Below are positions 15,491-27,615 of a stretch of 28,491 nucleotides of DNA, piece by piece. Location: the IMG/VR virus record IMGVR_UViG_3300032287_001224, positions 1-28,491 of that record, one strand, 5' to 3'. The first letter of the stretch is position 1. Each line of letters starts with the position of its first letter. Source of the stretch: a virus. The notes beneath the pieces are model-generated. The model saw only the letters and a list, made by a program, of their open reading frames with translations. It was not told where the DNA came from and searched no databases. The position numbers and the translations under genes were made by a program.

Positions 15491-15757
15491 ATGAGAGAGC
15501 CTCACGAATTCGAGGCTCCATTATGTGCCGAAGTGGGCGGAGATTACTGGTTTCCTGAAATAGAAATCGGTCATCATATGCAACAGACTGTTGGCTATGC
15601 CAAATCAATCTGTGGTAAATGTCCCCACCAAACTGAATGCGCTGAATGGGGCATATATAACGAGCACCACGGTATCTGGGGCGGTCTAACCGTTAGAGCC
15701 AGGTCATCTATAAGAAGACAGCGAAACATAATAATTAGGAGAGATAACGTTGCTTGA
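15491..15757 (+). CDS. WhiB-family Fe-S transcription factor
   Basis: An 88-residue protein with the full WhiB signature: Cys12, Cys41, Cys44 and Cys50 for the [4Fe-4S] cluster, then GIWGGLT at residues 61-67 and a basic C terminus (RARSSIRRQRNIIIRR) for DNA contact. WhiB proteins bind the primary sigma factor of Actinobacteria and tune transcription; phage members such as WhiBTM4 can repress the host homologue. This is the strongest host clue in the window. It starts three bases after the upstream gene and its end overlaps the helicase start. Confidence 0.92.
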   Translation: MREPHEFEAPLCAEVGGDYWFPEIEIGHHMQQTVGYAKSICGKCPHQTECAEWGIYNEHHGIWGGLTVRARSSIRRQRNIIIRRDNVA

Positions 15758-18561: not shown

Positions 18562-18958
18562 GCGAGGAAATGGAACTAGCTCTGAGAATTTTGATAGAGA
18601 GCGGCTTCGTAGTGCTGAGTATAGACCAGACTCACAAGCAGTTCGTGGTAACCCTGCCAGTAGTCCGTTAGCAGACCACGCTGCAGTAGTAGGTTATAGA
18701 TCTATCGGTGTCAATACCGATGACCTTGTATCGTTCATAGAATCCTTCGCTTCGCTACGTGCAGGTCGTGTTAAGAATGTAGGACACGATCAGTATGCGC
18801 TAGCAAGTGGACAGAAGTTCGAGTCCTTTACTACCTCAGATACCATCAAAGAATTACTAGAGGAGATAGCTGACGCTAGCAACTACCTCGACTTCCTTGC
18901 TATCAAACTATTAAACATCCAACACACTATAGATTTGGTGCTACCTGACTGTGACTGA
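18554..18958 (+). CDS. MazG-like nucleotide pyrophosphohydrolase, tentative
   Basis: A 134-residue protein. The first 50 residues are polar and probably disordered. The C-terminal part (AGRVKNVGHDQYAL, then TIKELLEEIADASNYLDFLAI) resembles the helix pair of all-alpha NTP pyrophosphatases, in which ELLEEIADA supplies the E-E-x-x-D metal ligands. If so it could hydrolyse NTPs or dNTPs. Only one clear motif is visible, so the call is tentative. Ribosome binding site AGGAGAG ahead of ATG 18554; overlaps neighbours on both sides. Confidence 0.55.
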   Translation: MNERGNGTSSENFDRERLRSAEYRPDSQAVRGNPASSPLADHAAVVGYRSIGVNTDDLVSFIESFASLRAGRVKNVGHDQYALASGQKFESFTTSDTIKELLEEIADASNYLDFLAIKLLNIQHTIDLVLPDCD

Positions 18959-19583
18959 ACTAGACCCTGCGGTATACGACTTAGTTCCTTCCGTTACTAA
19001 TAGTATCCACCGACGCTACAAGAACTTTATAGAAAAGGCAGACTTAGCGCAAGAGTGTTATGTGTGGGCTACTTCTCGCGCTTACTATATCAACGAGCAG
19101 TTAGCCGAAGAAGATGTCGAACAATACAAACATAATTTACAACGTATCGCTTGGCAAATGCGTAGGGTAGCTGAGCGCTACGCTCGTAGACAGAAGGCCG
19201 AGAAGTCTGGCTACTCAGTAACGGATGAAACTTACTATGAGTCTGCCACCTTGGGCCAACTACTACCATTCGTTATTGCTTCGGTAGTTGACGGAACAGT
19301 GCTAGAACAGATACAAGATATGATTCAAGATGGACAACCACGTGGCTCATCATCACCATCAGAAGGTGGCAACTTACTAGCAACCCTGATAGATATTAAG
19401 AAATCTTACCTGAAGTTAGACCAGTCCGATAAGGACTTGCTACTACTTAGACATCACGAAGGTCTTACCCTTCAGCAGATAGCTGAAGCATATGGTTGTG
19501 CTTTATCTACCGCCGATAGGCGCTGTGCTAATTCACTTCGCAAGCTGCAGAACCTACTCGGAGGAGATAGCCCTTGGCGATGA
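18951..19583 (+). CDS. Sigma-70-like transcription factor
   Basis: A 210-residue protein. The C-terminal 50 residues (LDQSDKDLLLLRHHEGLTL, QQIAEAYGCALSTADRRCAN, SLRKLQ) look like sigma region 4 with its helix-turn-helix for the -35 element. Near the N terminus, KADLAQECYVWATSRAYY recalls the DL-QE-- helix of region 2, though the middle is divergent. It may direct host polymerase to late phage promoters or act only as a DNA-binding regulator. Start GTG 18951 overlaps the previous gene. Confidence 0.7.
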   Translation: MTELDPAVYDLVPSVTNSIHRRYKNFIEKADLAQECYVWATSRAYYINEQLAEEDVEQYKHNLQRIAWQMRRVAERYARRQKAEKSGYSVTDETYYESATLGQLLPFVIASVVDGTVLEQIQDMIQDGQPRGSSSPSEGGNLLATLIDIKKSYLKLDQSDKDLLLLRHHEGLTLQQIAEAYGCALSTADRRCANSLRKLQNLLGGDSPWR

Positions 19584-24939: not shown

Positions 24940-25445
24940 TAGGTAGACGATAGCAGAAAAAAGGAGAGGCGTGTCTATTCTATTTGAGGTTTTCTTTCCT
25001 TTCTTTTTCAGCTCGTGCCACAGATACCGGTGGACATTTGCCTGGTATTTGTCCAAGTCTTGTGGATTGGTTGAGAGTTAGACAGCGGCGCGAGCTTTAT
25101 CCAAGATCTTTTTGTGTGTCAATCGGTGGGCAATCGGTGGCAGATTGGGGGCGCTATCGGTTAGCCGTCGAAGGGTTAGGGGATTGGATTGGTTAGTGAA
25201 ATTGTGCCGATTAAATAGTAAGCCCGCGCCACGGCACTAACCACCCCGCCTTGCCGTTCATTGCCACCGATACGGGCAGGGCAGGGCAAAACAGGAATGG
25301 CAACGGCGCAAAAAAACACACCCCCCCTTGTTTAAGTGACGGTGGTGTTGTATTGTGTAGCACGAATAAATATTTTGACTAAAGTGAGATCCCCGTAATT
25401 AGACAGTAGGCCCCCCGTCTGTATAGGTATTTAGTGAGTTACACC
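24940..25445. other. Non-coding part of the divergent region
   Basis: I see no convincing gene here. An open frame at 24984-25196 crosses the iteron array and is Arg/Trp-rich without a family. Besides the repeats there are GTGCCG (25204-25209) pairing with CGGCAC (25232-25237), a GGGCAGGGCAGGGC run (25275-25288) and a C-run near 25320. TTGACT at 25375-25380 could be a rightward -35 element, but no good -10 stands at the right distance. Confidence 0.5.
25120..25162. repeat. Iteron-like ATCGG repeats
   Basis: CAATCGGTGGG (25120-25130) is followed directly by CAATCGGTGG (25131-25140), a weaker copy with ATTGG at 25144 and another with ATCGG at 25156. The cores start at 25122, 25133, 25144 and 25156, that is 11, 11 and 12 bases apart, close to one helical turn. 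Relatives are CCGGTGG at 25027 and, inverted, CCACCGAT at 25264. This looks like a binding array for a replication initiator or repressor. It lies in the 850-base region between the leftward operon and the terminase. Confidence 0.55.
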
Positions 25446-25656
25446 ACAAATAAAAGATTTATTTGTAAAAAGCGGGAAATGCTTAAAATTTACTGCCTTA
25501 TACAGTATAGGGAGCAAATCTTTATACGCTTTGATTTGCGACCAACGGTTGGCCTCTGGCGAGGCCCCCTAGGGCTGAGCCTAGTTTTACCCCTCAGTTC
25601 GCTGTGGCTCCTTCGGGCGCTAAGCCCGAACAGTTGCGGTGCTGCGCACCGCTTTT
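25446..25656 (+). ncRNA. Candidate structured RNA or packaging region: run of perfect hairpins
   Basis: Perfect stems follow one another: ACAAATAAA/TTTATTTGT (25446-25454/25458-25466, 9 pairs), TATAC/GTATA (25499-25509), GCAAATC/GATTTGC (25514-25520/25533-25539), GGCCTC/GAGGCC (25551-25556/25561-25566), CTAGG/CCTAG (25569-25573/25580-25584, then TTTT), TTCGGGC/GCCCGAA (25612-25618/25624-25630) and GCGGTGC/GCACCGC (25636-25642/25646-25652, then TTTT). The last is terminator-like, so a rightward small RNA ending near 25656 is possible. A cos/pac site or origin just before the terminase gene is the alternative. No known RNA family is recognised. Confidence 0.5.
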
Positions 25657-25725
25657 AATCGGGATAGTTCTATTAAAATGCTAGACGCCTAGTAATAATC
25701 TCCCCTAGTATAAAATGAGAATTTC

Positions 25726-25739
25726 GCGCCTCGCGGCGC
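25726..25739 (+). promoter_or_regulatory. Hairpin at the terminase ribosome binding site
   Basis: GCGCC (25726-25730) and GGCGC (25735-25739) form a perfect stem around TCGC, ending just before the terminase AGGAG (25743-25747). A TATAAA-like element lies at 25709-25714 and CCTAGTA occurs twice (25688-25694 and 25704-25710), so a promoter with a short structured leader is plausible, though no -35 match is seen. Confidence 0.4.
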
Positions 25740-25752
25740 TTTAGGAGATGAC

Positions 25753-27615
25753 GTGGCAGAAAACTCAGCAGATATAGCTAAGAGGATTATCCTTGGCTGT
25801 ATAGCAGAAGGTATGACCGTAGACGCCGCTTGTGCCTCGGCTGGCAAGTCTATGAAGACTTATGAATATTACCGGCGCACCGATAAGGTCTTCGCCGACA
25901 AAATGGATCGCACTAGGCTAGGTCTAAAGGATAAGGCTTTTGCCTCCGGCGATGTCCACGATATAACCTTCGCCGAGTTTAGACAGCGCTTTTTAAATTC
26001 CAAGACTTTTGGTCATCAGCAAAATATCGTAGATGTAATTGAGGGTCGTGAACCTTCGTGGCTACACCCATCTATGAAGTATGAGCCTGGCCTATCTGAT
26101 AATAGAATCCTTATTAACATCCCGCCAAACCACGCCAAGTCTATGACGATAACCGTTGACTACGTTACTTGGCAGGTAGCTCGTAATCCTAACTTTAGAG
26201 TCTTGATAGTATCCCAGACTCAACGCCTAGCCTCCGACTTTCTCTACGCCATAAAGCAACGCCTAACACATCCAATGTATCAGGACCTTCAAAGTGCATA
26301 TGCTGCTGGCGTAGGGTTCAATTCTAAGTCAGCCTCCTGGCAAGCAACTCGAATCACCTTCGGTGATGAACTACGTGAGTCCGGTGAAAAAGACCCAAAC
26401 ATCGAGGCTGTTGGTATCGGCGGTCAGATTTACGGTAAACGTGCCGATATGATTATTGTAGACGATGCAGTTACCTTGTCTAATGCAAATGACTTTGAAC
26501 GCCAAATCAAGTGGCTAACACAGGATGTAAGGTCCCGTCTTAACCCTACTGGTAAATTAATTATTATTGGCACAAGAGTAGCCTCTGTAGATCTCTACAA
26601 AGAACTACGCAACGAAGACAGATACCCAGGCGGCCTAGTCCCTTGGAAGTATCTGGCTATGCCAGCTCTGCTGACAGTTGATGAAGACCCCGACAAGTGG
26701 GAAACCCTTTGGCCCTACTCTGATGCACCATTCGATGGGCAGACCGAAGTAGAACTAACACCAGATGGCCTATACCCTCGCTGGTCTGGACGTAACCTTT
26801 ATAACGAACGCCAAGCAATGGACGCTTCTACTTGGGCTTTGGTATATCAACAACAAGATGTATCAGAGAACGCATCCTTTGACCCAGTATGTGTTCGTGG
26901 TTCTATTGATGGTATGCGTAAAGCAGGTCCGTTAATCGGCGGGCATCCTGGACATCCACGAGATTTAAATGGCTTTAGTATTATCTGCGGCTTAGACCCT
27001 GCGATGATTGGTGATACCGCAGCTATCTGTTATGCCATTGACCGATCAACCAAGAAAAGGTATATCGTAGATGCTATTAAGATTAGCCGTCCGTCTCCAG
27101 CCGCTATCCGTAATCTTATTTTTGATTGGACATCCCTCTACGCACCCAGTGAATGGATCGTCGAAAAGAACGCCTTCCAATCCTTCTTAACACAAGACGA
27201 AGGTATCCGTCAGCACTTAGCTTCTAAGGGTGTGCAGTTTAAAGAACACCATACTGGTAACAATAAGTGGGATAGCGGATTTGGTGTAGCTTCTATGTCT
27301 ACCCTATTTGGCACTAAGCAATTTGATGGCAAGCACCATAGAGATAATCTAATACATCTACCATCAGACCAGACCGAGAACATTAAGGCTTTGATAGAAC
27401 AGTTAATTACCTGGACACCTACCACTAAGGGTAAGACCGATATGGTAATGGCTCTTTGGTTCTGTGAGATTAGAGCAAGAGAAATGATTAACTATGGTAA
27501 CTATGCTACTCACCATATGAAAAACCCGTTCTTATCTCGCCACGAGATAGGTAAGCGAACAGTCATCAACTTAGATGAAGCCTTCGCTGAACAAAACAGA
27601 ATGAAAATAATCTAA
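25753..27615 (+). CDS. terL: Terminase large subunit with N-terminal helix-turn-helix
   Basis: A 620-residue packaging motor. Residues 1-55 look like a DNA-binding helix-turn-helix (GMTVDAACASAGKSMKTYEY) of the kind found in small terminase subunits. The ATPase part has Walker A PPNHAKS (124-130) and Walker B IIVDD (234-238); RVLIVSQTQRLASDF follows the usual strand. The RNase-H-like nuclease part has Asp415 (CGLDPAM), Glu471 (IVEKNAF) and Asp563 (KTDMVMAL). It should cut and pump genome concatemers into the prohead. GTG 25753 has AGGAG five bases before it. No separate small subunit gene is seen. Confidence 0.9.
   Translation: MAENSADIAKRIILGCIAEGMTVDAACASAGKSMKTYEYYRRTDKVFADKMDRTRLGLKDKAFASGDVHDITFAEFRQRFLNSKTFGHQQNIVDVIEGREPSWLHPSMKYEPGLSDNRILINIPPNHAKSMTITVDYVTWQVARNPNFRVLIVSQTQRLASDFLYAIKQRLTHPMYQDLQSAYAAGVGFNSKSASWQATRITFGDELRESGEKDPNIEAVGIGGQIYGKRADMIIVDDAVTLSNANDFERQIKWLTQDVRSRLNPTGKLIIIGTRVASVDLYKELRNEDRYPGGLVPWKYLAMPALLTVDEDPDKWETLWPYSDAPFDGQTEVELTPDGLYPRWSGRNLYNERQAMDASTWALVYQQQDVSENASFDPVCVRGSIDGMRKAGPLIGGHPGHPRDLNGFSIICGLDPAMIGDTAAICYAIDRSTKKRYIVDAIKISRPSPAAIRNLIFDWTSLYAPSEWIVEKNAFQSFLTQDEGIRQHLASKGVQFKEHHTGNNKWDSGFGVASMSTLFGTKQFDGKHHRDNLIHLPSDQTENIKALIEQLITWTPTTKGKTDMVMALWFCEIRAREMINYGNYATHHMKNPFLSRHEIGKRTVINLDEAFAEQNRMKII

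Follow-up and report, generated by a model that had tools for sequence, protein, structure and literature searches.

A conserved, predicted structured RNA with promoter-like and terminator elements upstream of the terminase gene in lake phages of probable actinobacterial hosts

A run of hairpins (25446-25739) directly upstream of the terminase gene in an IMG/VR virus record of 28,491 bases, hereafter referred to as the window, is mostly a conserved RNA of about 150 bases which is apparently undescribed. On balance we favour the view that the run is where the terminase (late structural) operon of an actinophage family has its promoter and leader, whereby transcription, its start and control by readthrough are deduced from sequence; the RNA would then probably work as a leader that turns the late genes on or off. 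The real unit is predicted to extend over about 25433-25674, with a terminus region ahead of it (Table 1).

Table 1. Features of the region upstream of the terminase gene, in window coordinates
Feature	Position	Strand	Sequence or size	Basis or remark
Terminus-like motif (probable)	25205..25225	+	TGCCG-N6-TAGTNNGCCC	relatives and contig-end cluster
Second conserved DNA motif	25368..25387	+	AAATATTTTGACTAAAGTGA	possible right border region of terminal repeat
CRP-like box	25433..25448	+	AGTGAGTTACACCACA (TGTGA-N6-TCACA)	conserved at fixed spacing
Stem 1	25446-25466		9 bp	lineage-specific
Stem 2	near 25470-25484		AAGCG/TGCTT, 5 bp, one G-U	overlaps promoter-region dyad
Promoter-region dyad	25473..25495	+	CGGGAAAT...ATTTACTG	arms change together
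-10-like element	25501..25506	+	TACAGT	TATAGT or TACAGT in relatives
Predicted structured RNA	25507..25656	+	about 147 nt	R1 match and terminator
Helix H2 (stem 3)	25514-25520/25533-25539	+	GCAAATC/GATTTGC, 7 bp	double changes
Hairpin H3 (stem 4)	25551..25566	+	GGCCTC/GAGGCC, 6 bp	alternative, overlaps H4
Helix H4	25563..25576	+	GGCCC-CCTA-GGGCT	double changes
Stem 5	near 25570-25584		CTAGG/CCTAG, 5 bp	lineage-specific
Invariant segment	25587..25617	+	TTACCCCTC..T.CGCTGT.GCT...TCGGG	invariant columns in A1 and A2
Helix H6 (stem 6)	25612..25630	+	TTCGGGC-GCTAA-GCCCGAA, 7 bp	pairing on A3
Intrinsic terminator hairpin (stem 7)	25636..25656	+	GCGGTGC-TGC-GCACCGC-TTTT	stem 25636-25652, 7 bp, then TTTT
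Post-terminator sequence	25659..25674	+	TCGGGATAGTTCTATT	conserved in A1
Tandem repeat	25688..25710	+	CCTAGTA x2, spacing 16	repeat in window
Stem 8	25726-25739		5 bp	lineage-specific
Terminase large subunit gene	25753..27615	+		PHROG 38, E = 1.3e-62

Results

The unit and its distribution

The terminase gene is accompanied downstream by that of the portal (PHROG 104). A WhiB gene at 15491 makes an actinobacterial host of the window phage probable, and 'Ca. Planktophila' is the host of phages with a 47% identical terminase (PMC10202952). A terminase search yielded 80 contigs of 84-100% identity, and nearly all contigs reaching far enough upstream contain the promoter-RNA-terminator unit in front of this gene. 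Altogether, well over 100 related contigs of IMG/VR contain the unit on the terminase strand and upstream of this gene, with CRP-like box, TATA-GGGG start, dyad, helices H2/H4/H6, invariant segment and intrinsic terminator. A 31-base pattern representing the most conserved segment of the element was matched in at least 120 stretches and, among the matches listed with a terminase in the stretch, is always found on the same strand just upstream of it, at a distance of 105-722 nt. The 171 loci extracted, some of them one contig fetched twice, were reduced to 94 by dropping near-identical copies. Neither the 31-base pattern nor a terminase relative was found in GTDB genome contigs, which therefore provide no prophage or host link, and blastn against the phage collection returned two 22-nt matches only, which were taken as chance.

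The stretch between the element and terminase varies. In L019, L020, L072, L368 and L390 an additional protein-coding stretch separates the two and the element is kept, and ARAGORN predicts tRNA-Arg (ACG) genes between them in L052 (537-612) and L065 (477-550). An imperfect hairpin which resembles a small mobile cassette is inserted there in L001, L002, L005, L007 and L068; in L002 its arms are of 32 nt and 78% complementary. At the end of the 40.7 kb contig L013 (positions 1-376), the terminase-upstream region is inverted and the element lies on the opposite strand; this end was set aside as a possible misassembly (or a real inversion).

The hairpin run and its fold stability

The eight stems listed in the first-pass annotation are all present in the sequence, stem 2 with one G-U pair, and stem 8 adjoins the AGGAG preceding terminase as described. 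They do not constitute one set: stem 3 (H2) and stem 6 (H6) are conserved in relatives, and stem 7 is conserved in its position. Stem 4 (H3) is found in part of the families only, showed no double changes on alignment A2 (see below), and its bases overlap the better supported hairpin H4. A 74-aa open reading frame at 25434-25658 was rejected as a gene on the basis of a missing PHROG match and of indels and stops in relatives.

The folding energy is lower than that of shuffled sequence. For 25440-25750 (+ strand) an RNA MFE of -102.3 kcal/mol was calculated compared to -86.0 +/- 5.2 kcal/mol for 100 dinucleotide shuffles (z = -3.11), one of which was as low. Across 94 relatives, however, the predicted transcript reaches a mean z of just -1.6, and so does its reverse complement. 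Fold stability alone is thus a weak signal, and its similarity on the reverse strand counts against the leader model.

Paired substitutions

Support for a structured RNA comes instead from paired substitutions between relatives and from a terminator conserved in position. Because the sequence families differ, the helices were read family by family and tested on A2, which contains 30 sequences of families with one H2 type. Clear paired substitutions were detected in H2 and H4. In H2, where 96.7% of the cells on A2 are paired, double changes affect 4 of 6 pairs on the unfitted A2 and 5 of 6 on A3, the alignment of sequences matched by covariance model R1. The second pair of H4 occurs as GC, UA and CG, with 29 double changes on A3. 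H6 is paired in 88% of the A3 cells and shifted or replaced in some families.

Model R1 matches the window at 25507-25638 with 123 bits. Its search of 96 clade sources yielded 96 matches, L013 being inverted and cut by the contig end. On A3, double changes are found in 10 of 16 pairs and the covariation score amounts to 0.267, whereas shuffles score 0.095 +/- 0.007 and slid structures no more than 0.071; A3 is fitted to R1 and relatedness inflates the double-change counts, and the double changes in H2 and H4 are also observed on the unfitted A2. Cells with G-U and A-C combinations number 24 vs 9 in H6, 77 vs 13 in the promoter-region dyad, 12 vs 9 in H2 and 8 vs 8 in H4. As the G-U excess is clear only in H6 and the dyad, the strand evidence stems mainly from the terminator and H6, and this restriction also speaks against the leader model.

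The pattern of the invariant segment, in its RNA form UUACCCCUC...CGCUGU...UCGGG, is contained in at least 120 contigs. Pairing of its CCCC with the 5' GGGG or the post-terminator GGG was considered and dropped, the bases being nearly invariant and offering no covariation to judge by. Several families show folds in which CGCUGU pairs with the stem before the U-tract, too inconsistently for this pairing to be claimed. RNAalifold on a MAFFT alignment produced a poor consensus because H2 and the part preceding H4 vary between families, and was replaced by hand-set helices and the covariance model.

A scan of the window and four relatives against Rfam revealed no family at the gathering threshold and only noise with E up to 5, and no description of the element was found in the open-access literature searched. 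Within the bounds of Rfam 15 and this literature, the RNA thus qualifies as undescribed, as surmised from the sequence.

The terminator and the stretch up to terminase

In 73 of 84 relatives, a stem with an energy of -7 kcal/mol or lower is found in front of a U-tract at a like place, with differing sequences; its median is -15.7 kcal/mol vs -5.7 kcal/mol for shuffles, 42% of which also reach -7. A conserved position combined with a changing sequence fits the behaviour of a terminator. In the folded sequences of several families the conserved CGCUGU segment constitutes the 5' side of this stem, around H6. A few relatives (L009, L010, L012, L015, L021, L356 and L360) are devoid of the 3' domain and the terminator and in some others the T-run after H6 is missing, which argues against the leader model. 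At a place like that of the post-terminator sequence, Streptomyces phages contain TCGGGATCATTCCTCC or close variants. The tandem word in front of terminase is family-specific in L002, L028, L073 and L009 (CCGGTAT, CCAGTATT, CTTGGTA) and its spacings differ, as if matched to a co-evolving DNA-binding protein.

The main rival of the leader model is a trans-acting small RNA, binding for example host RNA polymerase or mRNA, with a separate terminase promoter perhaps located at the CCTAGTATAAA repeats. Its promoter and terminator would be discrete and it would be present in one copy per phage, as observed; the strong sequence conservation of the CCCCUC-UCGGG segment and the fact that a gene or tRNA may separate the element from terminase are likewise in its favour. 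However, the same-strand place directly upstream of terminase, seen among the matches listed, would be needless for a trans-acting RNA and the post-terminator stretch is conserved too, so that we consider this reading unlikely, albeit not negligible.

The promoter region

The layout of the promoter region supports the leader model. The CRP-like box is matched at 8-10 of 10 positions in 85 of 85 relatives of sufficient length; among shuffled flanks, 0.5% reach 9/10 matches. Its distance to the base before GGGG is 53-54 or 68-69 nt in relatives and 68 nt in the window. These two classes are 15 bp apart, not whole helical turns, which argues against simple CRP activation and, to that extent, against the leader model. 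The dyad is placed between the box and the -10-like element; its arms are, for example, CGCTAAA/TTTAGCG, CGGTAAA/TTTACTG or CGGGAAA/TTTCCCG in relatives and contain one mismatch in the window. CCTTATATAYAGTAGGGG is highly conserved at the -10-like element of relatives, and the RNA is expected to start near 25510-25514. A sigma-70 region 4 protein encoded at 18951-19583 is a candidate factor for this promoter.

In Beephvirinae, Streptomyces phages whose terminases are about 42% identical to that of the window, the nine records with GGGG after TATATATA have the box at 53 or 54 nt. These phages also contain a second box, at 100-110 nt, and the annotated start of terminase is preceded by a hairpin-rich leader of 222-248 nt. 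The box spacing of 53-54 nt, the dyad, TATATATA-GGGG and a structured leader followed by terminase are thus common to the window clade and to Beephvirinae including Manuel and FlowerPower. In contrast, the leader RNA sequences of these Beephvirinae are not alignable with those of the window clade; the R1 search of Manuel, FlowerPower and the LanE43-phage sister clade gave nothing convincing, weak matches with E >= 1 being noise, and by eye no U-tract stem was recognized at the matching place of the Streptomyces leaders. We regard the promoter layout common to such distant phages as the best sign that the arrangement is functional. In the sister clade (L198-L277 and L195, with the cultured 'Ca. 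Planktophila' phages), a TATA promoter likewise follows a dyad and hairpins precede terminase, the sequence being unrelated.

The genome terminus

The terminus-like motif is matched at 11 or more of 13 positions in 60 of 102 relative loci vs 0.6% of shuffles. Counted upstream from the UUACCCC segment, 28/87 contigs retrieved by the element end at less than 500 nt and 0/87 at 500-1500 nt; 13/87 end at 324-366 nt, where the terminus-like motif is located, and three start exactly at GT..GCCC, whereby these ends are those of assemblies and many contigs run through the terminus region. Of 119 relatives, 115 contain CTAAAGTGA with at most one mismatch. The ends of three contigs are located 23-62 nt beyond the second motif. 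Direct terminal repeats of 276 bp in Manuel and 253 bp in FlowerPower start with GTCCC and stop just before the promoter region; the repeat of 396 bp in the Abafar record has different borders. The two motifs probably delimit a terminal repeat or mark the genome terminus. The packaging terminus appears to be positioned about 230 nt upstream of the run, with the left end near G25218, and for the window's clade we infer, from contig ends and motif only, a terminal repeat starting near 25218.

According to the first-pass annotation, the placement of the run would fit a packaging signal, an origin or a structured small RNA such as the packaging RNA of phi29. A pac or cos site within it might be conceived since the run adjoins terminase, contig ends are enriched nearby and the CCC..GGG segment exhibits partial dyad symmetry with one covarying pair. 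It is improbable, as the end cluster and terminus motif lie outside 25446-25739, few contigs end inside the element, and the terminator hairpins and RNA-type pairing would be left unexplained. The upstream terminus and the terminal repeats of the Streptomyces relatives on that side imply that the packaging cut is probably made outside the run, and also render a phi29-type pRNA unlikely. An RNA working in this manner would agree with the size of about 150 nt, the structure, and the place and persistence beside terminase, but Rfam provides no match, the window terminase is of the full-length PHROG 38 type, and pRNA has been described as unique to phi29-like phages (PMC11476376). In view of this, and as positive evidence was not found, we rate it as quite improbable. 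An origin of replication is very improbable: the large non-coding region, the divergent gene blocks on either side and the dyads and direct repeats might suggest one, but these parts are accounted for by the promoter and terminator architecture, no iteron array was found, and the cumulative GC skew peaks elsewhere, near 19-20 kb. Of the interpretation in the annotation, the structured and, as far as searched, undescribed RNA is supported.

Discussion

The leader model is supported by the constant place and orientation of the element directly ahead of terminase, the covariation of H2 and H4, a terminator whose place is kept while its sequence turns over, a box spacing that is fixed in the relatives and the same in Streptomyces phages, and an order that matches lambdoid late operons. 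We propose the following scenario: The structured RNA would be initiated near 25510 by a promoter that carries a CRP-like box and, next to its -10 element, a dyad; it would fold into H2, H4 and the 3' domain and normally stop at the intrinsic terminator at 25656, ca. 100 nt before the terminase start. Terminase and the later genes would be expressed only as RNA polymerase reads through the terminator, aided either by the RNA or by a factor of phage or host origin bound at the dyad. An antitermination factor was not identified, and no Q family was detected among the proteins scanned. It is a rather doubtful possibility that the element represents a new RNA class, widespread among phages infecting abundant freshwater actinobacteria, which itself acts on the host RNA polymerase in cis, by protein-independent antitermination, or in DNA packaging.

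The element defines an RNA family which is missing from Rfam and occurs once per phage in a large lake-phage group, the probable hosts of which are actinobacteria according to the WhiB gene and the 'Ca. Planktophila' link (PMC10202952); for this group a probable genome terminus is located as well. As the promoter layout is common to Streptomyces phages amenable to laboratory culture, the control of late genes in actinophages can now be tested directly.

The put antiterminator RNA of HK022 is a structured, two-hairpin RNA at early operons. Like put, the window RNA is structured, lies at the start of a phage operon and could act on RNA polymerase in cis; unlike put, it belongs to a late operon, and no resemblance was found in a comparison based on Rfam only. 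The phi29 pRNA, of 174 nt with 120 sufficient (PMC11476376), is related in size range and in its context of phage genome end and packaging gene. Differences are the lack of a covariance-model match and of a phi29-type terminase, and the operon promoter and terminator architecture of the window.

The late leader of lambda is the 6S RNA between pR' and tR'. The lambdoid order of promoter, short leader RNA and intrinsic terminator before the late genes is also found in the window, and the binding site beside the -10 element has a putative counterpart in the covarying dyad of the window. In lambdoid late operons Q binds between -35 and -10 and polymerase then passes the terminator, and 21Q resembles sigma region 4 (PMC6606751); a 21Q-like role of the window's sigma region-4 protein is a speculation by analogy. 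The window unit differs from pR'-tR' in its unrelated sequence, the CRP-like box and the conserved internal RNA structure, and its phages differ from the lambdoid ones in probable terminal repeats, actinobacterial hosts and no Q homologue shown. The kind of element, a phage late leader with terminator, is known; novelty lies in the RNA, in the layout of its promoter and in the group of phages concerned.
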